DNA of 37,604 nt from Negativicutes bacterium (GTDB lineage Bacteria; Bacillota_C; Negativicutes; Acidaminococcales; Acidaminococcaceae). Shown here piece by piece: positions 8,714 through 35,397 of this stretch (its first letter is position 1; every line of letters begins with the position of its first letter). The translations under genes were made by a program, and so were the position numbers. The DNA is taken from positions 1-37,604 of the forward strand of contig RZYP01000013.1 of assembly GCA_009930275.1 (NCBI GenBank), given 5' to 3'. Under the pieces are notes generated by a model. The model was not told where the DNA came from. It ran no database searches and saw nothing but the letters and a program-made list of their open reading frames with translations.

Positions 8714-8736
8714 TATAAAAAGAGGAGGTTTAAATC

Positions 8737-18026: not shown

Positions 18027-18644
18027 TTAATACCCCAGTTCCTGGTCTACAATAATGATTTTGATCCTGTCCTTAAGGAATTGATTAGCTATAAGGACGA
18101 AATCATTGCAAATTCTTTCTTTGTGGTTGCAATCGATGCAACGACCTAATTTAGCGCACGGCGTACCTTTGCCCAAACGCTTGGCATCCAATGGTGCCGC
18201 TATCTGTCTGACTCTCTTGATAGCTTCATCGACGTTTCCCGTTATTTTGTTAGTACCGACCACTATGATGACCTGCTCCGGTCCGTATATCATCGGCGCA
18301 ACTCTGCTGCTATTACCGTCGATATTAAATATCTTGCCATCCATAGTAATCGCATTGGTGCCTGTGATAAAAGTATCTGCCGTAAAATTGCGCAAATAAA
18401 TCGCACGCTTGTCCTCATGACTTAAACCAGGCCGGTATTTATCTAAAAAGACAATATCTCTTTTTCTTAGATAGTCGAAGACGCCCGTCTGTTCAAGCGT
18501 AACCGAGTCACGGCAGCCTACCGCAGTTCCATCCTTAATAAATTCATTCAATATGGTAAGCAACTCTTGAGAATTGCTGACTTGAAAAACCGCCATATTG
18601 TGTTGTTCAAAATTACGCTTAAGTTTATCAATAGATTGTTGCAT
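18027..18644 (-). CDS. LUD-domain protein (LutC/YkgG-like)
   Basis: The 205-aa protein has the LUD (DUF162) pattern: GTAVGCRDSVTLEQTGVFDYL, then ADTFITGTNAITMDGKIFNI, DGNSSRVAPMIYGPEQVIIV and VGTNKITGNVDEAIKRVR. These are typical of the stand-alone YkgG type. A Cys-rich tail (KLGRCIDCNHKERIC) might bind metal. Relatives work with iron-sulfur proteins in lactate use, but single LUD proteins like this are uncharacterised. The start MQQSIDKLKRN at 18644 is chosen for its AGGAGA; the frame extends further upstream without support. It precedes the 59-aa gene. Confidence 0.85.
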   Translation of the reverse strand: MQQSIDKLKRNFEQHNMAVFQVSNSQELLTILNEFIKDGTAVGCRDSVTLEQTGVFDYLRKRDIVFLDKYRPGLSHEDKRAIYLRNFTADTFITGTNAITMDGKIFNIDGNSSRVAPMIYGPEQVIIVVGTNKITGNVDEAIKRVRQIAAPLDAKRLGKGTPCAKLGRCIDCNHKERICNDFVLIANQFLKDRIKIIIVDQELGY

Positions 18645-18743
18645 AATGATTGATTCTCCTAATAATAACGATTCAATTATTATAACTTGTACTGAAGAGG
18701 TAAAACAAATGGTTACATGCTTGTTTATTTGCAAATATTTTAT

Positions 18744-21146
18744 CTACATTTGTTTAATAATACGACAAAATTCTTCATTTTTCGATTTTTTAATGAAGAT
18801 ATCTTTCAATACTTTCCAGGATTTATCGCCAACATTCTCTTTTAGGGCAATACATACAGTTGATATAAATTGCTTTTCGAATTTCAACCAAACATTATCA
18901 TAAATTATTTGTGTGCGAGTAGAGTTAAGATTCAGATCATTTGTAGATCCAATATCCAAACGAAATCGTATAGGAAATGGTAATTCTAAAACCGCTTTCT
19001 GGTTATAATTTGTGTAATTTCTAAACAAACTGCAAGGCACATTGATTCCGTGTATAGAAATGCTGGATGCAGAATTATTAATTTCACGGTAGCTACTATT
19101 AGTTTGAACGGAAGCATTCTCATCTATTTCTAAATTGATTGAATGCTTATGGATACAGTTGTCAGCATAAGAAATACTAGAAGATAAGGTGTAAAAATTG
19201 CCATCAACTTCAACATTTTTTTTGCAAATATCAAGTGATTCCATAATTTCACCATTATTGCTGACTATAAACGCTATTTCTGCTTTTCCAGAAAATCCTT
19301 GTTCTGGACAATCTAAACTTATACTAACAGTTTTAATATTATCTTCTCTGCTCCACGTATAGTCATGATCTAATTTTAGATCAAGTTTCATAAAAGAATC
19401 TGGTGCGCAAATTTCAACAGTATTTGCTGCTTTAACTTCAATGTTGAACGGTGGAAGCGGAATAAGTTTTTTTACGCAATTAACAAAATCCTCTTTACTC
19501 ATCCGCTGCCAGGGATGTGTTTTTCTCAATTTAAGCGTTGTTTTGGTCCCAGGCTCTGTCCTAATTCCATTAGTTATAACAAATAAGCTATCATAACCCT
19601 CTATAGAAATTTTTAATGCTTCATCAGTACTATATGGTCCACAAATTTTTTTTGTTTCGACCTTCATGCTATCACATACCATGAAACATGCCAATATACC
19701 TATGCCAAATCTAGAAATAGGTTTGAATTTTTGATTGGTTTCTGCCATTAAATCCAAAAATTCTGTTGATGTGTAATATGATTTACCAATATTTGTGTAA
19801 TAATTATCAACAATATTTTGGTTCATTCCTATACCATTATCTTCTATTATTAAGTAATCAATGTCGCCTTGCGTGTCCAATGTAACTTTAATATAAGGAT
19901 TATAATTATCTTTCCATACAACGCTTAAACTCTTCCTAAGTAAACATGCATCAATAGAATTTTGCAGTAGTTCACGGATTGCAACCTCTGGATTTCCATA
20001 TAATTTTGTTCCCATCAATAAATCTATAACTTGCTTTTTGTTTAAAGTAAATTTTGTATCATGATAAATATAAATAGGTTTACCGGAAACAATATCCCGT
20101 TTTGCACTAATTTTCTTTCTATTTACATACGCAGGCAATTTTATTTTATAACAATCAACATCACATATATCACTATAAAGATTCGCTAAAACTAAAGTGC
20201 AATTACGTAATTCATCATCAATCAAATCACAAAATCCTCTTATAGTAGCCTCAATAGCAGGATGACTACACTGAGCTGAAAACGTAATTGTGTCTTTTCC
20301 AAACGACCAGGCAGATACTGACTGATGTTTTAACCATTCTGATAGAGAGACAGGGTCCTTTATTGCAAGATGCGAAAATAATACAGATGGGGTTCTTTTG
20401 GTATCAAAGTCCATAATATCAGTTAATCTAAGTACGACTGCCACAAAAGGAAGGCATAAATATGTGTCCTCTCCACAAAGCTTCGTCGTTTCCATATCTA
20501 ACAATGCCGTGTGCCCCTCATTATGACTAAAACAAATTTCTGCCAAATCAGCAGTCAAGTCTATATTATGATATTTAATTTTTCCGTTCCAATATTGCTC
20601 AATAATTTTTCTAGCTCTATCGGCATGCGTCATTCTAATGTATTGTGTTACAATATAATCTAAAATTAATTGAGCTTTCGAATATTCACCTATATTATTG
20701 AAGGAATCAATTTCTTCCAATTCATGTATAAATGCTTTTTTAAACCGCTCAAATGCGTTTATTTCTTCTTCGAATTCTAGCTTCCTTTCTTCCCCTAATT
20801 GATTCTTCCAAGCCATAATAACTTCTCTTTTTGGCGACATTCCAATATCATGTAGAAAAATTGAAAGTATAATCATCATTAAATCTGGCGTTGATATCTT
20901 CACCAGTTTTTCTTTTGGTATTAATTTACCTGCCAAATACAACATATTAAACAAATGCTTTTCATCATGCAAAGTATATTCAGGCATATTTATGATAATA
21001 GCCTTAGATAAATCAATTGAATATTCTGCCACCTCATTTACTAATGTCAGTATTGAAGATAGAGTTGGCGAACTAGAACATCTATTTTTTAATTCTTTAT
21101 AGAGAATGCTTCTATTTAACTCCATATCTAAGGTTGGTTCCTTCAT
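18744..21146 (-). CDS. HD-domain / Hsp90-type (GHKL) ATPase fusion
   Basis: This roughly 800-aa protein joins two catalytic modules. The N-terminal part (about 40-260) has HD-type metal motifs: HDEKH, FLHDIGMS, FSHNEGH and RLTDIMDFD. The part from about 370 has the Bergerat ATP site of Hsp90/MutL/histidine kinases: AIRELLQNSIDA (N box), IEDNGIGM (G1) and FGIGILACF (G2), followed by Hsp90-like middle segments. An HD phosphohydrolase could cleave a nucleotide or a nucleic acid, and the GHKL module would act as an ATP-driven clamp. ATG 21146 is preferred for GGAGGG just upstream; ATG 21158 is an alternative. It follows Res by about 78 bp on the same strand and is the last gene of the defence operon. 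I know no named system with this protein as partner of type III restriction. Confidence 0.75.
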   Translation of the reverse strand: MKEPTLDMELNRSILYKELKNRCSSSPTLSSILTLVNEVAEYSIDLSKAIIINMPEYTLHDEKHLFNMLYLAGKLIPKEKLVKISTPDLMMIILSIFLHDIGMSPKREVIMAWKNQLGEERKLEFEEEINAFERFKKAFIHELEEIDSFNNIGEYSKAQLILDYIVTQYIRMTHADRARKIIEQYWNGKIKYHNIDLTADLAEICFSHNEGHTALLDMETTKLCGEDTYLCLPFVAVVLRLTDIMDFDTKRTPSVLFSHLAIKDPVSLSEWLKHQSVSAWSFGKDTITFSAQCSHPAIEATIRGFCDLIDDELRNCTLVLANLYSDICDVDCYKIKLPAYVNRKKISAKRDIVSGKPIYIYHDTKFTLNKKQVIDLLMGTKLYGNPEVAIRELLQNSIDACLLRKSLSVVWKDNYNPYIKVTLDTQGDIDYLIIEDNGIGMNQNIVDNYYTNIGKSYYTSTEFLDLMAETNQKFKPISRFGIGILACFMVCDSMKVETKKICGPYSTDEALKISIEGYDSLFVITNGIRTEPGTKTTLKLRKTHPWQRMSKEDFVNCVKKLIPLPPFNIEVKAANTVEICAPDSFMKLDLKLDHDYTWSREDNIKTVSISLDCPEQGFSGKAEIAFIVSNNGEIMESLDICKKNVEVDGNFYTLSSSISYADNCIHKHSINLEIDENASVQTNSSYREINNSASSISIHGINVPCSLFRNYTNYNQKAVLELPFPIRFRLDIGSTNDLNLNSTRTQIIYDNVWLKFEKQFISTVCIALKENVGDKSWKVLKDIFIKKSKNEEFCRIIKQM

Positions 21147-21223
21147 AGTACCCTCCATTTTTGAAATTTAGCAGTCTAGTAATATTATTTAAAAAGTTAA
21201 CTGCAATATTCATTACTTGCTTT

Positions 21224-24190
21224 TCATTTTGCAGATGTTATATCCATAAACCTATCAAATCTATCAGCTTTTCCGAATACTACATGACTGCCAAGTGCTT
21301 CGAAGTGCTTATAACCGCAGGCAATTTTCCCTGATTCCGTTGGACGCAGTGATTCAAACAAAGTATTGCCTTTTGTTTCAAGCACAAAGTACAATTTTTT
21401 CTCATCATCTTGTTCAATCAAAATTGCCCAATCTGGGTTATATGTTCCAATTGGCGTCGGAATTCTAAACCAATCCGGCAGCTTTGCATATAATTTAATG
21501 TTATCATTAGCTTCGAAACTTTCGGCAAAGTTTCTTTCATTTTCACTATCATAAACAACATACTCGTACACTGACTTCTTACTTTCAACCATGTTTCGTT
21601 CAAAATAACCAGTTAATTCTTCCGTTTCGAACAATTCTTGTGCGTAGTATTCTTCGTCGCCAAGTTTGGTATATTTTATTCCGTTTACAATCATAAGCCG
21701 CATTTCAGAAGAAATCATTTCTGCTACTTCTTCCATATACCTTTGTGGATTTTTCTTAAACAGATTCAGAGTGTCACTTTTAACCAAAATCTCGACAAGC
21801 GTTTTACGTGTCAAATTAGTACGATTCTGCAAATAAGTAATAACATCTGGCAAAATTTCTACATGCTCTACTAAAACAAGCGCGTTGTTTGCAACTTCTC
21901 GCGCTAATAAGCCTCCTTCAGTCACACTATAACGAGCCTTCAAGTATTTTAGTTTTGCAGCAGAAATATTAAGGCTCTCTTGCAATCTTCTTGCACATTT
22001 TTCGATTAATACGCTACTATCAAAATCAACGGCATATGTAGTCTTATACTTTATTCGCTCCCACAAATCTTGGAATTCGGGGCTAATATAAACAGCTTTA
22101 TTAAGTTTAATTTTCTTTTTATCATCAGCTGATTTGATATTAAGTTTCGAACTTGCTTTTTTGCATATTGCTATAATAGCTGACTTAGATTCATTAACTT
22201 CTGCAGGAACAACCAAAACATTTTCTTTAATAGCTTTTTGTAAACTAGGCTGGATTTTGCCATAGGAATCTATATGGTTTTGCTCTTCAAAGCATTTATA
22301 AATTTGTATTGATTTTTCAATGCCAAGGTATTTATTAGTTCCGTCGGTCTGCTTAACAGGTATATTGGCAAAAGAATGTTTCTCCAAAATACCGAAACGA
22401 ATTCCTTCTTCTTCCTCGTATTCTTTTTGAAGTTTAGCGGCAAACTCCTCATAACTTTCATTAGCCATGACAGTCAAAGTATTTACGGCAAAGCCGAACT
22501 GTCGCTCACCTTTTTGATTAACGCACAATCGAAGACCTCTGCCGATTTCTTGTCGTTTTTTTACATTACTATTAGTTTCATTTAGCGTGCAAATTTGAAA
22601 AACATTCGGATTGTCCCAGCCTTCACGCAGAGCAGAATGCGAGAAAATGAACCGCAATTTGCTATCAAAAGACAATAGATATTCCTTCTCTTTCATAATA
22701 GTATTGTAAGTACTATCGTCAGCTTGAGTATTGCCTTTTGTATCTTTAATTTGCTTTTTGCCGTCAATGGAAAAGTAACCATCATGGACATCCTGAGCCG
22801 CTGTATCTAAATCTATTTCACCGAAAAGCGTCCTGTACTTCGGGCGTCTAATTAGCTCATTATAGTGTTTCTCAAAGAGTTTTGCATATATGCCTTTTTG
22901 CGCTTTGCCATCAGCATCGTAAATACGGTAATTAGCTACACGATCAATAAAAAATAAGCTCAATACTTTTATACCTTTGGGATTAAGAATTAATTCTTTG
23001 TTGAGATGCTCTTCTATTGTCTTCCGGATTTGTTGCTCCTTAATAGCCAGATCATCAATATCACCTTGCGCTTTTCCTATGCGTAAAATATCTGGTTTGC
23101 TAGTAAAAGAAACATACTCATTGCCCTCTTCACAATATATTTCATCAACTATGTACCCCTCATAGACATCGCGACTTCCTGATTTCTCATACATGTCATC
23201 ACCAGCTTTAACTTCTACTACTTTACGCTTGACTGCTCTATTAACAATAGCATCTATCTCTATTTTTGCTTTTATTGGGCTTCTCCTATTATTCATAGAC
23301 TTCAATAGCATATACGCATTGTTATGGTAATCCTGGGAGACAAAACTTGCTACTTCAATTTGCTTGACTAATTCCAAATCAAAGCTGTCAACTGCATCTA
23401 ATTTATAAATCAAATTATGTTTGTCTACATGAGTAGCAGAATAACGAAACGTACATAATGGATTAAGCGAAGCAATTGCTTCCTTTGATTTTGGGGTTGT
23501 GTCTACGCTTTGGGGCTCATCAACTATGACTATAGGATTTGTTTCTTTAATTAGATCAATTGGCCTCATACCATTAAGGCTATCCTTACTTCTGTGAATT
23601 ATATTGGCTTTATTTTCCGCGTCCGGATTATCAAAACTTTTGCGGAAAGAATCTATATTAATAACCATAATAGAAATATAATCGTTAACAGCAAAACTGC
23701 GCACCTGTTCTAATTTGCTGCTGTCGTAAACAAAATAATCATAAATAGTATTATCATATAAACCCGCAAAATGCTCTTTGGTTATTTGAAGCGATTTATA
23801 TACGCCTTCCTTAATGGCAATACTCGGCACTACAATAATAAATTTAGAAAAGCCATAGTTATTGTACAATTCCAATATTGAGCGCAAATAAACATAAGTC
23901 TTACCGGTGCCTGTTTCCATCTCAATGTCAAAATCATATTTGCCTTTTGCAAGTTTTTCCATTTGCGCAATACCGTTACGCAACTGTATTTCTTGCAAGT
24001 TATCCAAAATATCTTCTTCGTCCAGTTCGAGTTTGTTACCAATGCCGTTTTCATTCCATGCAGTCCCCTGTTTAGTATAATCAGCAACTGAAAAATTAGC
24101 TTGTTTTGGGGTTTGGCCTTTAAATAAATCAACTACGGCGGAAACAGCTTCTTCTTGATATGCTAAGTTGGCATCAAATTGCAGCTTCAT
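21224..24190 (-). CDS. res: Type III restriction enzyme, Res subunit
   Basis: The 988-aa protein is a superfamily 2 helicase-nuclease. Motif I is ETGTGKTYVYLR (about 91-102), motif II VDEPQSVD, then SATH, and motif VI QEIGRGLRLCV. The C-terminus has YNPDWAILIEQ and VLETKGN, the D ... E-x-K centre of a PD-(D/E)XK endonuclease. With Mod it translocates or slides on DNA and cuts when two unmethylated sites are found. The start MKLQFDANLAYQ at 24190 has AAGGAGG before it, and its ribosome site overlaps the Mod stop; the longer frame upstream is unlikely. All key motifs look intact, so the system should restrict. Confidence 0.92.
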   Translation of the reverse strand: MKLQFDANLAYQEEAVSAVVDLFKGQTPKQANFSVADYTKQGTAWNENGIGNKLELDEEDILDNLQEIQLRNGIAQMEKLAKGKYDFDIEMETGTGKTYVYLRSILELYNNYGFSKFIIVVPSIAIKEGVYKSLQITKEHFAGLYDNTIYDYFVYDSSKLEQVRSFAVNDYISIMVINIDSFRKSFDNPDAENKANIIHRSKDSLNGMRPIDLIKETNPIVIVDEPQSVDTTPKSKEAIASLNPLCTFRYSATHVDKHNLIYKLDAVDSFDLELVKQIEVASFVSQDYHNNAYMLLKSMNNRRSPIKAKIEIDAIVNRAVKRKVVEVKAGDDMYEKSGSRDVYEGYIVDEIYCEEGNEYVSFTSKPDILRIGKAQGDIDDLAIKEQQIRKTIEEHLNKELILNPKGIKVLSLFFIDRVANYRIYDADGKAQKGIYAKLFEKHYNELIRRPKYRTLFGEIDLDTAAQDVHDGYFSIDGKKQIKDTKGNTQADDSTYNTIMKEKEYLLSFDSKLRFIFSHSALREGWDNPNVFQICTLNETNSNVKKRQEIGRGLRLCVNQKGERQFGFAVNTLTVMANESYEEFAAKLQKEYEEEEGIRFGILEKHSFANIPVKQTDGTNKYLGIEKSIQIYKCFEEQNHIDSYGKIQPSLQKAIKENVLVVPAEVNESKSAIIAICKKASSKLNIKSADDKKKIKLNKAVYISPEFQDLWERIKYKTTYAVDFDSSVLIEKCARRLQESLNISAAKLKYLKARYSVTEGGLLAREVANNALVLVEHVEILPDVITYLQNRTNLTRKTLVEILVKSDTLNLFKKNPQRYMEEVAEMISSEMRLMIVNGIKYTKLGDEEYYAQELFETEELTGYFERNMVESKKSVYEYVVYDSENERNFAESFEANDNIKLYAKLPDWFRIPTPIGTYNPDWAILIEQDDEKKLYFVLETKGNTLFESLRPTESGKIACGYKHFEALGSHVVFGKADRFDRFMDITSAK

Positions 24191-24201
24191 TATTTTCCTC
24201 C

Positions 24202-26142
24202 TTACACCGTAGTAAAAGCTTCTTCTTTTAATCCAGCGCATTTTAGTATTTCTTTGATATTTGTCTTGTTGCTATCCGATGCAAACCCGTTGTCTTTAAA
24301 GACAACTTTCCATATTTCTGGTTGTAATTCATTTCTTAATTTAATCATGCCTTGAGCAACATCAGTTGTTATTTCATCGTCAAGGCACATCATAAGCCCG
24401 CCAGCACCTATTTCATATACTTTTTTATCAGCAATTATATGCTCTACAACAGGATAAGTAAGATCAAGGCCCATCTTAATCATTATTTCATAGACGACAT
24501 CCATTTCGGTTCGTCCGTCGATATAGTTATTGATACTGTCATACATGGATGTCTCTAAATCATTGTAATCTGGATTCCACTTTTTAAGATTTGAACTATC
24601 AAGTTTAAATACTTTAAACCCAACATCTAAATCTTGCCCCATAAGCCCTGCTTCTTCTTTTATTTTTTCGCCAGCTCGACGAATGCGTTCCTTGCCAATC
24701 TCACAAATATTAGCAAATCCCCTTTTATATGCTTCTGACTGCTTGCGGCATGGCTCAGGAAGTTGAACGATTATGAATTTAATTCTTCTTCTATCTTTTA
24801 CATTTGATTGGATAATTGCATGAGCAGTTGTTGCCGATCCAGAAAAAAAATCTAAAATTATATCGTTATCATGCAAACCAACCATTTCTATGGCTCGTCT
24901 AATAAGATATACTGGTTTCGCATAGTCAAAAGCTCCACTAGCTAACAAATTTTTGACTTCAACAGTTCCGTTTTGATAATTAATTTCTTTCTCATCCCAA
25001 ATTGACTTTGCCTTCGTTCTTCTAGTACCATTTTCATCTGCTACCAAATAATCCTTTTGAAAAATATCCCATACTGTAGATTCATTTCGTTGTACACGTT
25101 TTGCAATCAATTCATGTGAGCAATTTGATACTTTATCTTTACTCCAACGCCAAGTTCCATCATCCATTGTTGATGGCTGAATTGGTAAGACCGGAATCAT
25201 GTCATTTGATATTTTTGTTAATGAAACCCCACCTGTGGTTTCATTAACATATAATGGATAATATAAATTAGGTCGCTCGCTTCTCCGCCAAAATCCTCCT
25301 CTTTGTCTTAATCCTAGTAACCTATATTTTTTACCATCTTCCTCAAATTTATATTCACTCAACATATCTTCAGAAAGAGCATGCCCAATAATGTTTACAT
25401 TAAGCAAATTTTTTGCATATACCATTAAATATTCATGCAGCTCAGCAATTTCTTTTGTTGACTGGGATCCCCTTGGATTACTTTTTACAATAATGTTGCC
25501 AATGAAGTTATTTTCACCAAATACCTCATTACAAATCTTTTTTAAATTTTCAATTTCATTATCATCAATGCTTATAAAAATTACCCCATCCTCAGTAAGT
25601 AAATTCCTTGCAAGTTTCAGACGTGGAAACATCATATTCAACCAGTTAGTATGGTATCGTCCACTAGTTTCACTATTAGAACTGACTCGACTTCCATCTT
25701 CACTAATTTGTCCGGTTATTCTTTTGTAATTATCTATATTGTTAGAAAAATCATCTGTATAAACGAAATCATTACCAGTATTATAAGGGGGATCGATATA
25801 GATCATCTTAACTTTTTTATGATAGCTTTTTTGTAAAAGCTTCAAAACTTCTAAATTGTCACCTTCGATATAGAGGTTTTGAGTATTATCCCAGCCTTTG
25901 CTCTCTTCCCTACAAGGGCGTAAGGTTCCAGTAGATGGAGTTTGTGCAAAACGCAAGGCCCTGCCTTTCCCATTCCAAGTAAAATTGTAGCGCTCCTTGT
26001 TATCATCTATATACTCACCAAGCACTTGTTTCAACTTATCAAAATCAATTTTCCCCTCAGTAAACACTTCGGGAAATAACTTCTTTAGTTCTTGGATATT
26101 ATCTTGGGCAATATCCGGTGTCATTCCATTTAATTCAGTCAT
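24202..26142 (-). CDS. mod: Type III DNA methyltransferase, Mod subunit
   Basis: The 646-aa protein is a beta-class amino-methyltransferase. The catalytic motif IV, IDPPYNTGNDF (DPPY at 117-120), comes before the S-adenosylmethionine motif DFFSGSATTAHA (about 430). The long segment between them would be the target-recognition domain. The N-terminal leader and C-terminal tail are those of type III Mod proteins, which methylate adenine (N6) in a 5-6 bp asymmetric site. Its ATG overlaps the HerA stop by 4 bp and its stop is 11 bp before Res. The recognition site cannot be read from sequence. Confidence 0.92.
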   Translation of the reverse strand: MTELNGMTPDIAQDNIQELKKLFPEVFTEGKIDFDKLKQVLGEYIDDNKERYNFTWNGKGRALRFAQTPSTGTLRPCREESKGWDNTQNLYIEGDNLEVLKLLQKSYHKKVKMIYIDPPYNTGNDFVYTDDFSNNIDNYKRITGQISEDGSRVSSNSETSGRYHTNWLNMMFPRLKLARNLLTEDGVIFISIDDNEIENLKKICNEVFGENNFIGNIIVKSNPRGSQSTKEIAELHEYLMVYAKNLLNVNIIGHALSEDMLSEYKFEEDGKKYRLLGLRQRGGFWRRSERPNLYYPLYVNETTGGVSLTKISNDMIPVLPIQPSTMDDGTWRWSKDKVSNCSHELIAKRVQRNESTVWDIFQKDYLVADENGTRRTKAKSIWDEKEINYQNGTVEVKNLLASGAFDYAKPVYLIRRAIEMVGLHDNDIILDFFSGSATTAHAIIQSNVKDRRRIKFIIVQLPEPCRKQSEAYKRGFANICEIGKERIRRAGEKIKEEAGLMGQDLDVGFKVFKLDSSNLKKWNPDYNDLETSMYDSINNYIDGRTEMDVVYEIMIKMGLDLTYPVVEHIIADKKVYEIGAGGLMMCLDDEITTDVAQGMIKLRNELQPEIWKVVFKDNGFASDSNKTNIKEILKCAGLKEEAFTTV

Positions 26143-28229
26143 TTTATTGAGCCTCCAATTTCTAATTTTTCTTTATTCGCATCTTCATTAATATCAGGTA
26201 CCTCAAAGATCATTGGCACCGTCGATCGGAATGCTTTGCCCATTGCTATCGCTGTTTTGAATTTTAGTGTAGGCAACACAGCAATAAAATCACCACCCAA
26301 ATAGTTAGATAGAAAATCACTGCTTGTTTTATCTAATTCTTGGAACGCAACTATAGAATTACATTGTGTTAAAACCGTCTTTGAAACATTTGCTGTTCTT
26401 TGTGCAATTACAATGAATCCAATATTGTATTTTCTCCCTTGCAAGGCGATTTGGGCAATACTATTAACTGTGGCTTTTGAAGCATAGTCTGATACCCCCA
26501 TTGTATTCACTTCTGGGATTATTGTATGGGCTTCTTCTATAACAACGCATACTCTTTTTCCAAAACTGTTCTTATTTTTAGCTGTTTTGAACAACGCCAA
26601 AAAAAACCATTTAGTATATTCAAGAACATCAAAACTATTCGATATATCTGGTATCTCAAATATTCCCTTATTTTTGTCGCTTTCTAAGAAATTCTTTATA
26701 GAGCTATCAAATGCATCTTTAATGTCTTTTTCATTACTTTCAATCAATTCCATCTTTTGTTGGTTTGCAAACTTAGCTTTTTCTTTTGCAATATTTCCTA
26801 TAGCTTTAAATGCCGTCTTTGCATCTGCATCTGAAACTATTGATTCAATATTATCAAAACACTTTTTGTACTCTCCTGTTAAATCCACAATAATTACTTT
26901 TGTGCTATCTGTGGCAATTTCGCTAATAAGATTTCTGGCAAATACTGATTTGCCAGCGCCAGTTACGCCTAAAATTGCCGTGTGATGGGTAACTGCAATT
27001 TCTTTATTAATAATAACAGGGTAGTTAGTACCCGGTATATATCCTATAATAAATTCACTTTCGGTAATCGATGGATCCGCAATATTTGAAGCCAAAAAAA
27101 TTGGGGTATTAATGCTTGGAACCCAACCGAATTGACTAAAACAAGCTCTGCATTCATCCCACTCGCCTAGTTGAATCGCTTCACCAATTATAAAACCAGA
27201 CTCATTCTTATTTTCAAGTTGTTCAATCTTTGTCATACCTTGCACAATTTGATATAAAATCTTATGTGATCCAATAGACAGTTGAACAAGTTGTCCATTT
27301 CTTACTTCAACTTTCGAGTTGTAAATAAACTTAATTTTTTCTATTAATGAATTCTCTGCAACTATTCCTATAAATCGTTTAAGATAATCTGATTCCTTTT
27401 GTGGGACAATTTTATAGACAATATCTGGTTCATATTTTCCAAAATCACCATTAAACAAAGCATCTATTTCTTTGGTGCACAAAACTTTAATCCATTGTTC
27501 TTGATTAAGTAAATATACATCCAAGACTAATCCTGTTCTTTTCCGTTTATCTATTGAATATTTAAATGCAACAAAATCAAAAATACTCATCGGTGTTTTT
27601 CTATTTTCGTATAACTTAACTAAGAAAGTATTTTTTGATTGTACCCCCAAAATTTTACCTACTGCATTTTCATTAATTTTATATGTTTCTTTGCTAAGCA
27701 ATTCTTCAATAGTTGAAGCCAAAGAAGGTATATTTAAAATCATAAAAATAACCCAAAACCATAGTAAGGCATTGAATTCTATTGAATTCATTGTATATTG
27801 GCTAATTGCTCCCCACAAAAAGAATGAAGAAAAAATAACTTCTGGTTTTCCAATTTGCCTATTAATCCTAGAAAAAATTTGTACGATTTTTATTTCATTT
27901 TTTAACTCACCGTTACGAAGTAGCATTAGTAGATAACTACTAATTATAAGATAAAATGTACAAGAAAAGAATAATACAAACACAAAATCTCGTTTTTCAA
28001 CAGGAACTAATAATAAAGAAATTCCTGCAGTTACAGCGTTGACAAACACATTTGAATCTTTTGAAAAATGAGGCTGATCTACTAATGATAAAAGAATTAG
28101 TAGAAGAAATCCTGCGGTGAACCAAAAATCATTAATCAAAAAAGAAAAATCTTGATTAATGAACCATCCTATTACTACCAATATAATTATCGCTAATATC
28201 ATCAAAATATATCTGTATTTTCTACTCAT
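26139..28229 (-). CDS. HerA/FtsK-like ATPase with an N-terminal membrane domain
   Basis: The 696-aa protein has a C-terminal HerA-type motor (DUF87). Walker A is GVTGAGKSVFAR (about 421-432), Walker B is VVIEEAHTIIPE (562-573), followed by LQGRKYNIGFIVIAQR with the putative arginine finger. The first 190 residues hold about five or six hydrophobic helices (ILMILAIIILVVIGWF, FTAGFLLLILLSLV, FVFVLFFSCTFYLIISSYL, LLWFWVIFMILN). Known defence HerA proteins (with DUF4297, Sir2 or NurA partners) are soluble hexamers, so a membrane anchor is unusual. The middle part (200-400) resembles the HAS-barrel region. It overlaps DUF4391 by 8 bp and Mod by 4 bp, so it is clearly in the operon. Confidence 0.85.
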   Translation of the reverse strand: MSRKYRYILMILAIIILVVIGWFINQDFSFLINDFWFTAGFLLLILLSLVDQPHFSKDSNVFVNAVTAGISLLLVPVEKRDFVFVLFFSCTFYLIISSYLLMLLRNGELKNEIKIVQIFSRINRQIGKPEVIFSSFFLWGAISQYTMNSIEFNALLWFWVIFMILNIPSLASTIEELLSKETYKINENAVGKILGVQSKNTFLVKLYENRKTPMSIFDFVAFKYSIDKRKRTGLVLDVYLLNQEQWIKVLCTKEIDALFNGDFGKYEPDIVYKIVPQKESDYLKRFIGIVAENSLIEKIKFIYNSKVEVRNGQLVQLSIGSHKILYQIVQGMTKIEQLENKNESGFIIGEAIQLGEWDECRACFSQFGWVPSINTPIFLASNIADPSITESEFIIGYIPGTNYPVIINKEIAVTHHTAILGVTGAGKSVFARNLISEIATDSTKVIIVDLTGEYKKCFDNIESIVSDADAKTAFKAIGNIAKEKAKFANQQKMELIESNEKDIKDAFDSSIKNFLESDKNKGIFEIPDISNSFDVLEYTKWFFLALFKTAKNKNSFGKRVCVVIEEAHTIIPEVNTMGVSDYASKATVNSIAQIALQGRKYNIGFIVIAQRTANVSKTVLTQCNSIVAFQELDKTSSDFLSNYLGGDFIAVLPTLKFKTAIAMGKAFRSTVPMIFEVPDINEDANKEKLEIGGSIK

Positions 28230-28947
28230 TTTGTCTCCTTATTAAGTTAACCCTTGTTTGTTCTAGTTGCTTTATCTCAATATTTATTTCCATTCTTCGG
28301 TTAAATTGCGTTTCTTTTTTCAACGCAACTCTTAATGCTGCAATCCTTTGATTGATGTTAGCAATTTTACTTATTAATTTTCTTGCTTCCTCGCCAGATA
28401 TTTCTGTGTTTGCACCCGTTATCAACTTAGCATTATATTTGCTTATTGTATCGACAATATCTGCATATAGCGCAAAACAATTGTTCTGATTCAGCTTCCT
28501 TATATCTAAACTTTTAAATATTTGATCTTCTGCAGTTAACCATTGGGTTTGCACGAATTCGTCTATCGTATTTTTGCTGTTATCATTCAAATTGATTCTT
28601 TGATGTCCTGACCAAATTTGGAATTTATTTTCTAGTCCAAATATCAATACCATTGGATAAGGAATTGATTTCATGATTACTTCAGCTAAACGATTTAAAC
28701 TCTTAATTTTTGCTAGTTGAACTAAAAATATTTCTATTTCTGAATAATCTCGAGTCTCATCTATGTATGATTGAATATTTATTGTCTCCGGTTTTAAACA
28801 GTACGCCCACGTAATTTTTTCTATAGAATTGGTAAATAAATCTTTATCAGTATTTGATAAAGCAGCATTCTCATAAAAAAGCTTCTTGAACACTGTCTTA
28901 TTCACTTTGCAGTTTTGTGGAATATAAAATTCATCAAAAATATCCAT
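28222..28947 (-). CDS. DUF4391-family protein
   Basis: The 241-aa protein matches DUF4391: IEKITWAYCLKPETINI, then IEIFLVQLAKIKSLNRLAEV and IPYPMVLIFGLENKFQIW, with a charged helical C-terminus (INIEIKQLEQTRVNLIRRQ). Genes of this family are commonly found inside restriction and helicase operons that also contain SNF2 helicases and type III Mod/Res; the biochemical role is unknown. The helical tail suggests a protein-protein adaptor. The ATG has AGGAGC upstream. It overlaps the HerA start by 8 bp. Confidence 0.7.
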   Translation of the reverse strand: MDIFDEFYIPQNCKVNKTVFKKLFYENAALSNTDKDLFTNSIEKITWAYCLKPETINIQSYIDETRDYSEIEIFLVQLAKIKSLNRLAEVIMKSIPYPMVLIFGLENKFQIWSGHQRINLNDNSKNTIDEFVQTQWLTAEDQIFKSLDIRKLNQNNCFALYADIVDTISKYNAKLITGANTEISGEEARKLISKIANINQRIAALRVALKKETQFNRRMEINIEIKQLEQTRVNLIRRQNE

Positions 28948-28966
28948 AATTAATAGCTCCTAATAG

Positions 28967-29722
28967 TCAATGTTTAATTATAACTAATCTTATATTTCCA
29001 ACATTTTCTATATCTCTTTTGAACTCATCTTCATTCTGTATAACACCCAAATCATAGACAACAAACAATTGTCGCTCGTAAATTTTACTATAAGCTGTAA
29101 TGTCTGCGCTTATTTCTTCAATGATTTGAGATTTTTTACCTTCTCTTAATAACTTAACTTCCACACTGGCTTTTAGGTTATAAATTACAAAATCTGGGAT
29201 GAATTCTTTTCCTGAAAACTCAAGCTTACCTGTTTCTCTATCATAATCCAACCCCTTGTTCATACCACGCCCAATAAATAAAGATTCAAGCCCATTCTGT
29301 ACTTCTACTTCTTTTTCAGGCTTTTTAAACATCATCGTACGCAGTCTTGATGCAATGATGTTTTCTAAATTTTCAAATTCATCTTCAACAAAATCCAGGT
29401 TGCCTTCCAAAGATGCAAAAAGCATTTTTGCGCTCACTAAAACTTGTTCCAATATTCTTTTTTGTTCTCCCCACAGAGTATCCATATATCCTTTCATGCT
29501 CCCAGTGTCAAATTTAAAAAATATTGATGGTACCCGAGCCATTACCGCAACTTGATCAGCAAGATCATTATAAATGCTTGCCATATCTTTAAATGATACA
29601 TACCTTGAATGTTCAACTGATTTCTCATTATTTAGTATTTCTTCAACGCTAACAATGAAACTTTCAATCTGTCTAAGCAGTACTTTTAACTTTCTTGTTT
29701 CTTCTAAAGAGAAATTTGACAT
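28967..29722 (-). CDS. PD-(D/E)XK-like nuclease subunit of the defence operon
   Basis: The 251-aa protein has a helical N-terminal half with long amphipathic segments and a C-terminal nuclease-like module. FIPDFVIYNLKASVEVKLL gives the D ... E-x-K active site, and IIEEISADITAYSKIYERQL and FVVYDLG continue the fold as in restriction endonuclease-like proteins. It is not the Res nuclease and is encoded separately, 12 bp after the SNF2 gene and 19 bp before DUF4391. It could be the cutting subunit driven by SNF2 or by HerA (as NurA is by HerA). The family name was not recognised. The start has AGGAGA. Confidence 0.65.
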   Translation of the reverse strand: MSNFSLEETRKLKVLLRQIESFIVSVEEILNNEKSVEHSRYVSFKDMASIYNDLADQVAVMARVPSIFFKFDTGSMKGYMDTLWGEQKRILEQVLVSAKMLFASLEGNLDFVEDEFENLENIIASRLRTMMFKKPEKEVEVQNGLESLFIGRGMNKGLDYDRETGKLEFSGKEFIPDFVIYNLKASVEVKLLREGKKSQIIEEISADITAYSKIYERQLFVVYDLGVIQNEDEFKRDIENVGNIRLVIIKH

Positions 29723-29734
29723 AAATATCGTCTC

Positions 29735-32700
29735 CTATTTCAGCACTAAAAATGTTATTAATTCGAAATCCTCGATATCGTCGTATAGATTTGATTGTAA
29801 AGTAGTGCCGCCTTTGCTAAAAAGACTTGCCACCCCTATTTCTTGCTTCTTACCAACCAAATTTTCTATTGCCAGTTCTAATAAATCTGAGTAATGTTTC
29901 ATATTATGTCCATCGTTAGTTTCACGATTAAATTCTGCAACAAGCTCGGTTACAACAGATTCTTGTCCTGAACATAGCTTTTTGAGATAATCCAGTATTT
30001 TTTTTGCATGCAGAAAAGATAATTTTACTTCTCCATCGTCTGCTATATAAAGCAAATAGTATGGGAACAAAGCGTTCTGCTCTTTGCTTTGTTCAAGCCC
30101 TTTTACCTGTCTGAGTACATAGATGACTCCTGGTTTTATTGTTTCACGCAAGTTATCATCTATGCCTACAACTGCATATAGGCCTGTAGGCGTTTCCTCT
30201 AAAAGTTCTCGATTGTCCTTCATAAACTCCATAAGGTCAACCTTAAAATCATTAAATGTTAAATCAGTAATCGAAATGCCACCCGAAATATCTTCCAAAT
30301 CTACCACTTCAGATTGCAGCTTTTGCAATTGCTTCTTACGATATTCCAAATCTTTCATTTCTTTGCCTTCATCTCGTTCTATTATATTTTCTTCTCCTGT
30401 TGCTGAAACGTCCAACAAAACCATGCGTCCTTTTACACGCCTAGCTAGATTTATGTAAGCATCTAGATCTTCCATGGGCCAGAAATTAACGAGTTGAATA
30501 ACTTCGTTAGTAGAACCAATACGGTCAATGCGTCCAAATCTTTGGATTATTCGTACTGGATTCCAATGGATATCATAATTAATCAAATAATCACAGTCTT
30601 GCAAGTTTTGCCCTTCAGAAATACAATCAGTTGCAATTAATAAATCTATTTCAGCATCTACTGCCGAAAATATTTTGCTGCATTCTTTTGATTTTGGAGA
30701 AAATAACATCAAGAGAGAAGTTAAATCGGACATACGAACAGACCGCTTAATTTCCTTGTTCAAAGGTATATTCGAGCGGTTATCTCCGGCACCAGTAACA
30801 AGGCCGGTATATATTCCATAATTCTCTAATTCTTCTGCTAGATTTCCATACAAATATTTTGCTGTATCAGCAAAAGCCGTAAATACTATAATCTTTTTGT
30901 TATTTCCATTTATAGGATTACGTATTTTTTCTAATATCATCTTTTTCAATTCAATAAGTTTATTATCTCTATCAGTATTTATGCATTGCGCCTCTTTTAG
31001 GATATTTTCAAGCTTTTCTTTATCTTCTTCCAAATCTTGTTTCCACTTGATAAGATCCATGTCTTGCAATAATACTTTAACATTGTTACCAAACATCAGA
31101 TTTTCAAATTCGTTGTCATCAAAATCTATTTCTTCAATCTTCATCTCAGGATTATAGCTGTATTGCTGATCATCTATTACTGCTAATGTATCGTTAATCT
31201 TGGCAATTATTCTTTCTACTGTGAGAGCAAAAGAATAGATAGAACTTTCCATTCGCTTCAGAAGACCTACCCTGATCAAGCCAATAAGATGCGTTTCTCG
31301 ATCAACCTGCCTAAATACTGATTTTCCATTACCAACTGCTACATCATATTTTCGTTCGTATTCTTCTCTCTTCATAGATAGCACATAACGTAAAGGCGAG
31401 TATATTCCTAGTGACAATTTATTGATTAGTTTATTTACTTGTTCTATCGGCGGAAACTGTCCTAAAGTATCAATTTTACTATATTTATTTTGAGGTTTTA
31501 GCCTCGTTGGGAATTTACCTATTTCATCGATATTGTAGTATTTTTCAATATGTTTTCTAGAACGTGCAATCGTAACAGTATCAAGCAATTTGAAATAATC
31601 AATATTCATCATCTCAACGAAGCTTTCTGTCGTCCGCCCCTCTTCAGGTAATGCTGTCCATTTATTAAAAACGAGCTGTGCCTTTCTTAATAAATTTTCA
31701 ACACTATTAATTCCGACCTCAGCAAATGCATTGTCTCGCCCTTCTGTTATAAAAGAAATTTGATTCTTGATATCGTTCATCTTATTGTTTACAGGTGTAG
31801 CAGAGAGCATCAAAACTTTGGTCTTGACCCCATCTTTAATAATATCGTTCATCAGACGTTCATATCTCGTCATATGATCTTTGACTGGAGGGTTATTTCT
31901 AAAATTATGGCTTTCATCTATAACTACGAGATCATAATTTTTCCAATTTATCGTTGCCAGATTTATTTCTCCGGAGAAACCTTTAGTACGGCTTAAATCA
32001 GTATGGTTCAGGACATCATAATTAAAACGATCACCACCAAAAATATTCCGCGTATCATTTTGCGTATAAATACTCCAATTGTCCCTAAGTTTTTTGGGGG
32101 CAAGCACAAGAACGCGGTCGTTCCGTAATTCATAGTATTTGATAACTGCTAAGGCTGTAAAAGTCTTGCCTAAACCAACGCTATCAGCAAGAATACAGCC
32201 GTTGTATTTTTCAATTTTATCAATAGCTCCCATTACGCCGTCTTTTTGGAATTTGTACAATTTATTCCAAATCAGCGTATTTTTAAAGCCTGTGCGCGTT
32301 TTTACAATATTATCTTCCGTTAATTCCCCTAAATAAGCGCTGAAAATATTGTATAGGGTAATAAAATAAATAAATTCTGGAGGATTTTCCTTATATAAAA
32401 TTTTCATTTGCCCTAACACTTTGTCTTTTACATCTTCTACTGCAGTCGTATTATTCCAAAGTGCGTCGAACATCTGTAAATATGCCGCAGTAAACTCTTT
32501 GCCATAAATACAAGTATTAAAATCAATTCGATTGGAAGGAGCAGCACCTAAGCCATCAGTCGTAAAATCAACTGAACCGTTAACGGCAATACTATCTTCT
32601 CCATTATCTATATAAAAAAGACGTGGCTGAGCCATATTTTCATTTTTTAGTGATTTAATTTTTACTTTTTCTCGCAACCAGTCTGAACACTCTTTGGCAA

Positions 32701-33004
32701 TAGCAGATTGCTTCATTTCATTGCGCAATTTTATTTCAAACTCGTTGCCAGAAATAGTTTTCTCGTTATGGTGGTCTATATAGAATTCTCTGAGCAATTC
32801 CTTATTTTGCTTAACGAATGTTGGTGCTGTAAAAATAAAACGCATTTCATCAATAAGTGATAGTTCTCTCTTTAATTCCGCAAATGCGTAGATTGTAAAA
32901 TAGGCAGATATTACTAACGTTTTTGAACCTTTTCTAATATTTGCCCTTAGCTCATCAATTACTTTGCCGTTTGCTTTATTGTCTAGTATTTTGGGAACAC
33001 GCAT
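29735..33004 (-). CDS. SNF2-type helicase with a PLD-like N-terminal domain
   Basis: This 1089-aa protein is a Swi2/Snf2 ATPase. Motif I is ADSVGLGKTFTALAV (GLGKT about 277-281), motif II VIDESHNFRNN, motif III LMLSATPVNN, motif V SEGQNLQDCDYLI and motif VI QRFGRIDRIGS. The first 190 residues resemble a phospholipase D nuclease domain (KTLVISAYFTIYAFAEL, then DSIAVNGSVDFTTDGLG), but the HxK motif is not visible, so it may only bind DNA. Proteins of this layout ('helicase-related') occur with DUF4391 and type III Mod/Res. ATG 33004 is preferred with GGTGG upstream; GTG 33016 is possible. It is the first gene of the seven-gene operon. It would remodel or translocate DNA for the associated nucleases. 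Confidence 0.88.
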   Translation of the reverse strand: MRVPKILDNKANGKVIDELRANIRKGSKTLVISAYFTIYAFAELKRELSLIDEMRFIFTAPTFVKQNKELLREFYIDHHNEKTISGNEFEIKLRNEMKQSAIAKECSDWLREKVKIKSLKNENMAQPRLFYIDNGEDSIAVNGSVDFTTDGLGAAPSNRIDFNTCIYGKEFTAAYLQMFDALWNNTTAVEDVKDKVLGQMKILYKENPPEFIYFITLYNIFSAYLGELTEDNIVKTRTGFKNTLIWNKLYKFQKDGVMGAIDKIEKYNGCILADSVGLGKTFTALAVIKYYELRNDRVLVLAPKKLRDNWSIYTQNDTRNIFGGDRFNYDVLNHTDLSRTKGFSGEINLATINWKNYDLVVIDESHNFRNNPPVKDHMTRYERLMNDIIKDGVKTKVLMLSATPVNNKMNDIKNQISFITEGRDNAFAEVGINSVENLLRKAQLVFNKWTALPEEGRTTESFVEMMNIDYFKLLDTVTIARSRKHIEKYYNIDEIGKFPTRLKPQNKYSKIDTLGQFPPIEQVNKLINKLSLGIYSPLRYVLSMKREEYERKYDVAVGNGKSVFRQVDRETHLIGLIRVGLLKRMESSIYSFALTVERIIAKINDTLAVIDDQQYSYNPEMKIEEIDFDDNEFENLMFGNNVKVLLQDMDLIKWKQDLEEDKEKLENILKEAQCINTDRDNKLIELKKMILEKIRNPINGNNKKIIVFTAFADTAKYLYGNLAEELENYGIYTGLVTGAGDNRSNIPLNKEIKRSVRMSDLTSLLMLFSPKSKECSKIFSAVDAEIDLLIATDCISEGQNLQDCDYLINYDIHWNPVRIIQRFGRIDRIGSTNEVIQLVNFWPMEDLDAYINLARRVKGRMVLLDVSATGEENIIERDEGKEMKDLEYRKKQLQKLQSEVVDLEDISGGISITDLTFNDFKVDLMEFMKDNRELLEETPTGLYAVVGIDDNLRETIKPGVIYVLRQVKGLEQSKEQNALFPYYLLYIADDGEVKLSFLHAKKILDYLKKLCSGQESVVTELVAEFNRETNDGHNMKHYSDLLELAIENLVGKKQEIGVASLFSKGGTTLQSNLYDDIEDFELITFLVLK

Positions 33005-33313
33005 CAACTCAACCACCTATCAATATTATTGCGCACAAAATTCTGAAATTGCATGTCATTCCTAGCTTGAAACAGCTCACCTTTCAGAGGTTCGCCACTT
33101 ATTTTTATTTTCCTGCGTAAAAACTCGTATTTGTTAAAGATGTCCTATTTTTCACCACTGTTCTTTTTTCTATATCAATCAAACATTATTACTCATTCTC
33201 ATTGTTGATTTATATTTTCCCCCAATTTATTTTAATCAGAATATACCGAAAAATTAATAAAGGTGCTATTATATAGGTAAATATACTTATCTGGTTCAAG
33301 GAGGGGTTACCAC
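33005..33313. other. Intergenic region between the defence operon and the DUF1508 gene
   Basis: This AT-rich stretch of about 300 bp must carry the promoter of the minus-strand defence operon and that of the plus-strand DUF1508 gene. I see TAATAT and TATTAT boxes but no convincing -35 partner. No gene, repeat or hairpin of note was found. Confidence 0.5.
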
Positions 33314-33685
33314 ATGGGGAAATTTCTAATCAAGAAAGCAGCTAACGGGTTCAAATTCGGTCTATTAGTCGCAAATGACGAAATCATTCTTAATTCGGAG
33401 ATTTATTCCTCGGAAGCCGCCTGCCGGGCCGGAATTGAGAGCATAAAAAAGAACGTGCTGGTTGCAAAGATTGAAGATCAGACAGTAAAGGAGATTAAGG
33501 TTCAGACCAATCCCAAGTTCGAAATCTTCTACGATAAAAAGGGCATGTTCCGGTTCCACCTGAAAGCTCGCAACGGCGAAATCATTGCGGCTTCGGAAAG
33601 CTACGCTAAGATGGAGAATTGCTTGATGGGCATCGAAATCATCCGCAAATATGGGCCTGATGCCAGAATTGTGGAGGAATCATGA
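33314..33685 (+). CDS. YegP-like protein with two DUF1508 repeats
   Basis: The 123-aa protein contains two DUF1508 units: GKFLIKKAANGFKFGLLVAN with SEIYSSEAACRAGIESIKKN, and PKFEIFYDKKGMFRFHLKAR with SESYAKMENCLMGIEIIRKY. Each has the pattern F-x-x-x-N-G-E-I-I-x-x-S-x-x-Y. YegP of E. coli has the same double layout; its role is unknown. AAGGAGG lies before the ATG. The next gene overlaps by 4 bp. GC content is higher than in the defence operon, which suggests this is resident rather than island DNA. Confidence 0.88.
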   Translation: MGKFLIKKAANGFKFGLLVANDEIILNSEIYSSEAACRAGIESIKKNVLVAKIEDQTVKEIKVQTNPKFEIFYDKKGMFRFHLKARNGEIIAASESYAKMENCLMGIEIIRKYGPDARIVEES

Positions 33686-33918
33686 TTAATGCCGATACAA
33701 AGGTTCAGATTGATAAATTGGTGAACGTAATTAAGGATAATCCTTTTTTGCTGACCGCGTTCAGAGATGATCCTTTTATCACCGTCATTTCACTGCTGCC
33801 GGATGACTTGACCGAGGAACAGGCGGTGGCAATCATCAGCGGCGTTCGTGCCAAGCTGGAGAGCAACGGGCCCTCGAAACAAACGGATGACAATATGGAC
33901 AATTTTCTGGGAACCTGA
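33682..33918 (+). CDS. 78-aa uncharacterised protein coupled to the DUF1508 gene
   Basis: The start overlaps the DUF1508 stop by ATGA, implying coupled translation. The acidic, helical protein has VIKDNPFLLTAFRDDPFITV and LPDDLTEEQAVAIISGVRAK. I do not recognise a family. The ordered helices and tail look like a small soluble partner. A hairpin terminator follows 10 bp later. Confidence 0.65.
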   Translation: MINADTKVQIDKLVNVIKDNPFLLTAFRDDPFITVISLLPDDLTEEQAVAIISGVRAKLESNGPSKQTDDNMDNFLGT

Positions 33919-33927
33919 CTATATAAG

Positions 33928-33964
33928 TAAAAGAAGCTTGCACAAATTTGTGCAGGCTTCTTTT
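33928..33964 (+). terminator. Terminator of the DUF1508 operon
   Basis: AAAAGAAGC-T-TGCAC pairs with GTGCA-G-GCTTCTTTT around a short AT loop, ten bases after the 78-aa stop. Confidence 0.8.
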
Positions 33965-33971
33965 AGTTATA

Positions 33972-34014
33972 GTGTAATCTTTCGCAATTTGGTTAACCCC
34001 TTTACGAAACTGCA
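33972..34014 (-). pseudogene. 43-bp fragment of a rhuM gene
   Basis: This stretch matches 36053-36095 at 41 of 43 bases. On the minus strand it still reads LQFRKGVNQIAKDYTI, against VQFRKWVNQIAKDYTI in the intact RhuM. Sequence on both sides is unrelated. It is a remnant of an earlier rhuM copy, and with the intact gene it brackets the DUF4143 ATPase gene. Confidence 0.8.
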
Positions 34015-34110
34015 AGCTCGAGCTCTTTTTATTTTTTGTTAAATACGTTTTATAAAAGTTGATAATTTATTGTTTTTGTGATATGCTTTTCACGAAATGA
34101 AGGTGATTGT

Positions 34111-35310
34111 ATGAAGAAAATAATACAACGGCCTCAATATTTAGAGGCACTACAAAACTTTAAAGATAAAAAACTTATTAAGGTAGTCACTGGTATTCGC
34201 CGTTGCGGCAAATCGACCTTATTCGATTTGTATTGTGATTATCTGCAAAAGAGCGGAATAAAAGAAAATCAGATTATCCGCCTTAATTTGGAAAGTGGCG
34301 ATTTTTATGCCATAAAAGATTATGAGCAACTCTATTCTTACATCAAAAAACTGGTTAAGCCAAATCAAATGAATTATATTTTTATTGACGAAGTACAGAA
34401 TATTAAAGATTTCCAAAAAGCCGTGGACAGTTTGTTCGTTTTAGACAATTGTGATATCTATATAACCGGTTCTAATGCTTACTTGCTTTCCGGCGAACTC
34501 GCTACGTTGTTATCTGGCAGATATGTGGAAATAAAGATGCTGCCGCTTTCTTTCAAAGAATATCTATCCTTTTTTCCGGAGCAAACCGATCTGATTCGTA
34601 AATACAACAACTACTTGCAAAATAGCTCTTTCCCCTATACGTTGTATCTGGCAGGCAAAAGTGAAATTATCGCCTATCTTGAAGGTATTTATCATACTAT
34701 CTTGGTCAAGGATATTGTAGCTAGAAAAAAGATAGCTGATGTTTCTATGTTGGAAAGTATTATAGAGTATCTTTTTGATAATATTGGTAATCTCTGCACT
34801 TCCACAAAAATTGCCAATACCTTAACCTCCGCAGGCCGCAAAATATCAGTTGCAACTGTCGAAACTTATATCAATGCTCTTCTGGAAAGCTTTGTCATAT
34901 ACAAGGCCGGCCGCTATGACTTAAAAGGTAAGCAATACCTGACCACGGGCAGCAAATACTATATCGCTGACATCGGTCTGCGTTACTACTTGTTGGGCGC
35001 AAAAAAGGCTGATTTGGGGCATATATTGGAAAATATTGTTTATCTTGAACTTTTGCGTCGCGGTTATAAAGTATATGTTGGCAAATTATACACTGCAGAA
35101 ATAGACTTTGTCGCCACAAATAATGAAAGCACGGAGTATTATCAAGTTGCCTATACTGCCGTCGAAGGTGATACGCTCAAGCGTGAACTAGCGCCTTTGG
35201 AATCTATTAAGGATCATCACCAGAAATATTTACTGACGATGGATTTTATTCCTCCTGTCTCCCATAATGGCATCCACCAAATCAATGTCTTAGATTGGCT
35301 CATGAAATAA
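34111..35310 (+). CDS. AAA_14/DUF4143 ATPase
   Basis: The protein is 399 aa from ATG 34111 (MKKIIQRPQYLEAL), chosen because GAAGGTG lies just upstream; the frame has an earlier ATG at 34078 without support. Walker A is GIRRCGKST (28-36), Walker B YIFIDEVQNI, then ITGSNAYLLSGELATLLSGR (sensor region). The C-terminal DUF4143 module has AEIDFVA and YYQVAYT, a remnant PD-(D/E)XK-like fold. This large family is widespread, often mobile and of unknown function; some members have been linked to stress or toxin-like behaviour. It is a single-gene unit with its own terminator. It lies between the rhuM scar and the rhuM gene. Confidence 0.88.
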   Translation: MKKIIQRPQYLEALQNFKDKKLIKVVTGIRRCGKSTLFDLYCDYLQKSGIKENQIIRLNLESGDFYAIKDYEQLYSYIKKLVKPNQMNYIFIDEVQNIKDFQKAVDSLFVLDNCDIYITGSNAYLLSGELATLLSGRYVEIKMLPLSFKEYLSFFPEQTDLIRKYNNYLQNSSFPYTLYLAGKSEIIAYLEGIYHTILVKDIVARKKIADVSMLESIIEYLFDNIGNLCTSTKIANTLTSAGRKISVATVETYINALLESFVIYKAGRYDLKGKQYLTTGSKYYIADIGLRYYLLGAKKADLGHILENIVYLELLRRGYKVYVGKLYTAEIDFVATNNESTEYYQVAYTAVEGDTLKRELAPLESIKDHHQKYLLTMDFIPPVSHNGIHQINVLDWLMK

Positions 35311-35340
35311 CTTGGAGCAATTATTGACCAATAATGTTTT

Positions 35341-35381: not shown

Positions 35382-35397
35382 ATGATAGCTGTATCAT

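Follow-up and report, generated by a model that had tools for sequence, protein, structure and literature searches.

Seven tightly packed genes in a Negativicutes bacterium raise the question of whether they constitute one large defence machine or a smaller restriction system that houses other defences. The operon occupies positions 18744-33016 of a 37,604-nucleotide stretch, which was analysed as a whole and is hereafter called the window (GCA_009930275.1, contig RZYP01000013.1). A sequence-only reading had held that three of the genes, encoding a small nuclease, a membrane HerA and an HD-GHKL ATPase, extend a set of SNF2 helicase, DUF4391 protein, Mod and Res into a single larger machine. 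This claim is not borne out, as the three genes also occur apart from the set and its closest relatives by SNF2 identity lack them where this could be judged. We regard it as probable that four of the genes make up a mobile, type III-like restriction-modification (RM) core into which defence genes have become embedded, the core serving them as a platform.

The seven open reading frames (ORFs) are listed here in the order of transcription, with positions in window numbering.

29735..33016, minus strand: SNF2-family helicase, core gene 1 (1093 aa, GTG start, degenerate N-terminal PLD/HKD-like domain)
28967..29722, minus strand: PD-(D/E)XK nuclease with a DpnII/MboI-type C-terminal domain, embedded between SNF2 and DUF4391 (251 aa; PF18742, 4.1e-9)
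28222..28947, minus strand: DUF4391 protein, core gene 2 (241 aa; PF14335, 1.6e-64)
26139..28229, minus strand: HerA-type translocase (HerA/DUF87), embedded between DUF4391 and Mod (696 aa, N-terminal hydrophobic helices)
24202..26142, minus strand: type III Mod methyltransferase, core gene 3 (646 aa; PF01555, 1.9e-34)
21224..24241, start probably at 24190, minus strand: type III Res endonuclease, core gene 4 (PADLOC REase_III, E=0)
18744..21158, minus strand: HD-CE and Hsp90-type GHKL ATPase, the gene after Res (804 aa; HD-CE 1.9e-52, HATPase_c_3 1.6e-11)

The proteins were named from Pfam, PADLOC and NCBIfam searches, and gap, guanine-plus-cytosine (GC) and motif figures were computed on the window sequence. 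The common strand, the gene order and the close spacing described earlier were all recovered, with successive intergenic gaps of 12, 19, -8, -4, -40 and 65 bp; an in-frame ATG of the SNF2 gene at 33004 agrees with the operon end given previously. The 40-bp overlap of Mod and Res is probably an annotation artefact, because AAGGAGGA precedes Met18 of Res (24190), and a start there would leave a gap of 11 bp.

Mod matches the PADLOC model MTase_III (5.1e-211) and contains the DPPY and FSGS motifs. Res scores 1121.6 bits against REase_III of PADLOC, matches RE_endonuc (5.4e-36) and the Res subunit of EcoP15I (4zcf_C, 6e-64), and retains the motifs GTGKT, DEPQ, PDW and ETKG. The pair has the sequence features of a type III RM system, namely a Mod with DPPY and S-adenosylmethionine-binding motifs and a Res with a superfamily 2 (SF2) helicase and a C-terminal PD-(D/E)XK domain. 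The SNF2 protein is supported by Pfam (Helicase_C 6.7e-14, SNF2-rel_dom 1.4e-10), by the PADLOC model C3a139 'HKD+Snf2' (6.2e-137) and by the helicase motifs GLGKT, DESH and RFGR. The catalytic motif of PLD nucleases is HxK, and it is missing at the aligned position of the N-terminal 'PLD' domain in 29 of 29 core homologues, so that this N-terminus does not qualify as a PLD nuclease. Because of this loss, the earlier count of two or three nucleases comes down to Res and the small nuclease, the two whose motifs are intact. The AlphaFold2 model of DUF4391 (predicted local distance difference test 96.3, predicted template modelling score 0.90) consists of an alpha/beta domain and a C-terminal helical hairpin, for which a structure search returned no PDB match at E<=0.001.

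The four-gene core is widespread. DUF4391 was found in 27 of 391 genomes of one class, taken as Clostridia, 26 of them above the family cut-off, and an SNF2 gene lies directly upstream of it in 21 of the 24 regions examined from these genomes, one of them with a 90-aa ORF in between. Among plasmids, 68 records have a DUF4391 match, and all five regions opened hold the full core in the order helicase, DUF4391, methylase, DEAD helicase, the archaeal one with an extra gene after DUF4391. A scan with the SNF2 alignment gave 105 relatives, and the best 80 of these supplied 76 further loci on contigs classed as viral. Together with L172 and the window, the 76 viral-classed loci, 21 class regions and five plasmids amount to 104 SNF2 loci, which form 91 groups at 95% SNF2 identity. 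A complete core is present in 59 groups, the window included; the other 32 were not classified singly, some being cut by contig ends and three loci (L239, L241 and L249) having no recognised DUF4391. Thus, the SNF2-DUF4391-Mod-Res set named in the sequence-only reading is real, its order is kept over wide distances in bacteria and an archaeon as far as these homologous loci represent them, and the core is probably mobile.

What distinguishes these cores from one another is the content of their junctions. With one representative per group, picked by locus number, 34 of the 59 complete cores are bare inside and 25 carry at least one internal insert of at least 100 aa, or 27 when two groups with variable content are counted as well. 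Inserts are found at the SNF2/DUF4391 junction in 4 cores, at DUF4391/Mod in 19 and at Mod/Res in 14 (p=0.009 for the three junctions against an even spread; p=8e-4 for SNF2/DUF4391 against DUF4391/Mod), and 25 of the 59 have a same-strand gene of at least 100 aa within 100 bp past Res. In the two variable groups the insert differs between close relatives (none in L144 and 179 aa in L198; none in L215 and 223 aa in L216 and L217), and this variation in its turn points to turnover. When 42 of the internal inserts were scanned together, the first 25 of the 42 families listed included RhuM (3), GmrSD, Schlafen, TIR and DUF2971 (2 each), and, as single cases among the matches listed, YhcG, AbiV, OLD-TOPRIM/AAA_15, UvrD, a subtilase and a reverse transcriptase, among others. 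A complete Gabija system (GajA 3.9e-208, GajB 6e-236) stands at the SNF2/DUF4391 junction of L265 (13160-16886). Other inserts comprise an AbiP2-type reverse transcriptase in L193, IetA in L250, where a subtilase directly follows, and HEC-06/GmrSD in L236; RhuM occupies the Mod/Res junction of both L156 and L193. Of 26 internal junction genes scanned singly, 15 have a Pfam match, some of them weak. By these comparisons, the core junctions are recurrent insertion points, and many of the genes inserted there belong to known defence families. The nuclease and HerA of the window conform to this pattern, as both lie inside a defence operon that also exists bare; the HD-GHKL gene after Res has an edge position only.

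Among the other 103 loci, the cores nearest to that of the window by SNF2 identity (63-73%) are L148, L149, L150, L152, L191 and L192, and none of the six has the nuclease or a HerA adjoining DUF4391. The HD-GHKL gene is absent past Res in the four of these six in which it could be judged, since L150 ends after the neighbour of DUF4391 and L192 at Res. L148 and L149 (SNF2 73%, Res 70%) are bare cores.

Each of the three extra genes also occurs without the core, judging by the homologous loci, and in the samples they lie mostly without Mod/Res neighbours, an outcome that the sequence-only reading had itself named as telling against it: core genes stand in the directon of HerA in 2 of 79 loci, and they adjoin the nuclease in 0 of 2 and HD-GHKL in 0 of 11. 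The nuclease, whose D177, E188 and K190 are invariant in 32 aligned sequences, was matched in 2 of the 391 genomes, one weakly, and in 2 of 18 genomes in the family of the strong one. These two genomes of one family hold close homologues (65%) as single cargo of what we read as conjugative-type elements, flanked by a VirB4-like gene on one side and a peptidase gene on the other (L084 read from the sequences by eye, L185 by gene order). Neither homologue is beside a core, the nearest sign of one being a 20-bit Mod match about 4 kb off in L185. In the HD-GHKL protein, H103/D104 are kept in 38 of 39 aligned sequences, and H178/D247 as well as the GHKL residues E396/N400/D403/D440/G442/G444 in 39 of 39; in NCBIfam, the GHKL part is matched best by HSP90/HtpG models. 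Homologues at 1e-40 were present in 5 of 206 genomes, two at 58-59% identity, and these five plus the six best of a profile search (25-29% identity) make up the 11 loci, 10.9-19.9 kb each, two with close homologues, none of which has the gene beside core genes. Profile matches in 140 of the 391 genomes, most of which, like those in HtpG, cover the GHKL part only, were not used. Two further proteins, P0343 and P0361, have a common HD-GHKL part behind unrelated N-termini, one DUF4391 and one lysozyme-like, and at least one of them is probably chimeric because the N-termini are unrelated.

Type III cleavage requires two inversely oriented unmethylated sites. In the mechanism that we propose for the window operon, Mod would mark host DNA at a short site and Res, as an ATP-driven nuclease of the EcoP15I type, would cleave unmarked DNA. 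The SNF2-DUF4391 pair would be indispensable, either as a second motor or as an adaptor, and its inactive PLD domain would bind DNA without cutting it. The extra genes would most likely be separate or backup effectors co-produced with the core. The 251-aa enzyme would be a DNA nuclease, HerA a membrane-anchored hexameric DNA pump placed where incoming DNA first shows up, and HD-GHKL a sensor driven by ATP and linked to a phosphohydrolase, perhaps serving as a last-resort effector. Together they might catch phages that escape restriction.

Three other explanations have to be weighed. The genes could form one integrated seven-gene system, in which HerA feeds DNA to the nucleases and HD-GHKL provides a signal or chaperone step, in line with the common strand, the tight spacing, the low GC content and the recurrence of HerA at the same junction in L001; however, L148, L149, L152 and L191 are empty inside the core and have no HD-GHKL gene after it, and among the 104 SNF2 loci HerA appears in only two (the window and L172) and the nuclease and HD-GHKL in the window only, which makes such a system very improbable. 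Plain clustering in a defence island, where neighbours gather at a hot spot with no functional gain, would account for the further defence candidates in the window (a HEC-01-like pair, PDC-S01 and RhuM/PDC-S05) and for its other low-GC blocks. The GC content of the operon (0.333, against 0.456 at 1-7800 and 0.466 at 14106-17624) had been taken as a mark of transfer as a block, and the contrast itself stands, but low-GC blocks are also close by at 7889-10658 (0.345) and 33300-36429 (0.401). Mere clustering nevertheless sits poorly with the preference of inserts for DUF4391/Mod over SNF2/DUF4391 and with the placement of two of the three extra genes inside the operon, on its strand, rather than beside it, and is thus quite unlikely.

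Partial integration, in which HerA would be a genuine but optional subunit of RM systems, possibly acting together with a nuclease, and would upgrade several RM classes while the window's nuclease and HD-GHKL are separate cargo, turns on the contexts of HerA. The HerA core fold was confirmed in the 696-aa protein, and a scan of the genome collection, which kept 80 of 150 relatives, gave 79 loci, L064 having no single HerA ORF. Type I RM genes are present in the directon of HerA in 12 of the 79; for control ORFs taken from these loci the count is 12 of 271 (p=0.002, the controls not being independent), so the link with type I RM, as counted in these loci, is above background. HerA shares a directon with SNF2/type III genes in three (L001, L023 and L049), of which L001 and L023 have DUF4391-core genes and L049 a DUF499-type operon; ten more loci have labelled RM genes within 8 kb outside the directon, and a Res-like gene lies 151 bp upstream of HerA in L037. 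In L049 (732-14257), HerA follows by 22 bp an operon of DUF499, a DUF1156 protein and PLD/SNF2, which is like published BREX-related type 2 systems. Against this, 54 of the 79 loci have no modelled RM genes within 8 kb, although 23 of the 79 end within 1.5 kb of a contig edge and other RM types may escape the models, and sister HerAs keep unlike company (L001 with a core and L002 without a same-strand neighbour; L023 with a core and L020 without one). We consider partial integration unlikely.

Several observations weigh against the preferred view of a four-gene core with embedded cargo. It is an interpretation of sequence, and the tight spacing of the extra genes with the core (gaps of -8 to 65 bp) is also compatible with co-function. 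A simple ORF caller underlies the slot counts, to which split Mod genes (L204 and L254) add noise. Since 11 of the 26 junction genes scanned singly have no Pfam match, known defence genes do not make up all of the inserts. The contexts of the nuclease and HD-GHKL come from 2 and 11 loci, few against the 524 and 2139 homologues in the database. A closer tie between HerA and the core is favoured most of all by L001, where the order DUF4391-HerA-Mod repeats that of the window (Mod 64% over 43% of its length, DUF4391 57%; SNF2 is not in the short contig). HerA is also one gene away from DUF4391 in L023, and in L026 (4832-12130) HerA is preceded, at roughly 1.5-2 kb, by pieces of a closely related core (SNF2 70% over 54%, Res 65% over 14%), such that L026 is possibly a decayed window-like locus. 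Both L001 and L026 are outside the 104 SNF2 loci.

Mod and Res of the window are like those of EcoP15I-type type III RM, with motifs intact, but the operon differs in its fixed upstream SNF2 and DUF4391 genes and its embedded genes. DISARM is defined by DrmA/DrmB with DUF1998, and it was rejected for this locus: Pfam finds no DUF1998 in the seven proteins, the SNF2 protein scores 142 bits against DrmD where the cut-off is 610, and its PADLOC match to DrmA (1.1e-22) is via the helicase part. Anti-phage HerA complexes are known (SIR2-HerA/Nezha, HerA-DUF4297), as is HerA/FtsK capture, but the window HerA differs by its N-terminal hydrophobic-helix domain, and Pfam detects no SIR2 or DUF4297 partner in the seven proteins. 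BREX-related type 2 systems, in the available parts of their description, comprise DUF499, an N6-methyltransferase with DUF1156, HKD-SNF2 and DUF3780, and likewise combine a methylase with an SNF2 helicase bearing an N-terminal PLD-type domain (PMC12839542); the window differs in having Mod/Res and a lost PLD motif, and the absence of PglZ, BrxC, DUF499 and DUF3780 from the seven proteins (Pfam) places it outside BREX and BREX-related systems. Prokaryotic MORC/paraMORC proteins are, according to the portion available, GHKL ATPases whose genes occur in RM operons next to those of an SF2 helicase and a methylase (PMC2292703), whereas the window protein has HD-CE in front and a GHKL part closest to HSP90/HtpG models. 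CoCoNuT superoperons have neighbours that, in a figure legend, include SWI2/SNF2, PLD and Mod/Res (PMC11090510); no McrBC/CoCoNuT domain was found by Pfam in the seven proteins.

That defence genes are embedded in defence operons is an already published principle. As described in the accessible parts of these reports, tested cases are TgvAB within a type I RM operon (PMC11411939) and DarTG2 between hsdS and hsdR (PMC12255303), and the approach has been named guilt-by-embedding (PMC12988326). These cases, like the Hma-embedded and PDC candidates, resemble the window in placing extra defence genes within a host RM operon; as far as those parts go, the window differs in its host, an SNF2-DUF4391-type III core, and in its cargo, a membrane HerA, a DpnII-type nuclease and HD-GHKL. 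In the literature searched, we found neither a published system of these seven genes nor the SNF2-DUF4391 core as host operon or a membrane HerA as cargo, although the Payne 2024 preprint may already list the host.

If the platform view is right, a one-off seven-gene machine is replaced by a rule, namely that preferred insertion points of the SNF2-DUF4391-Mod-Res operon gather other defences. Mining these junctions could then yield a short list of unnamed, likely antiviral genes, beginning with those that have no Pfam match. Attention is also drawn to DUF4391, a fixed core partner with a confident model and no clear PDB match, and to the membrane HerA found with several RM classes. From its RM hosts, which are type I systems (often in the hsdS-hsdR gap), the DUF4391 type III core and the DUF499-type operon, it is conceivable, if still doubtful, that the membrane HerA is a portable add-on adopted independently by several unrelated restriction systems. 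It would catch DNA as it comes in at the membrane, pulling or holding it for the restriction enzyme already there. Such an add-on would turn cytoplasmic RM into an entry-gate defence.

Some minor observations concern the neighbourhoods. The gene just upstream of HerA in L020, L023 and L050 belongs to one cluster, with a 162-aa ORF between in L020; its copy in L023 and L172 is DUF2779/Cas4-like, and the gene could act as nuclease partner to the membrane HerA. Within the window, a LUD-domain gene (18027-18734, same strand, GC 0.397) begins 9 bp past the HD-GHKL stop; it would be host background and could lie at the boundary of the acquired block. An AAA ATPase gene and an overlapping TOPRIM/DUF4276-like gene at 8737-10658, in the second low-GC block, resemble HEC-01A/HEC-01B of PADLOC (5.7e-29 and 3.1e-7). 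Adjoining the operon, at 34078-36429, are PDC-S01 (AAA_14/DUF4143, 1.1e-162) and RhuM/PDC-S05 (1.1e-146).

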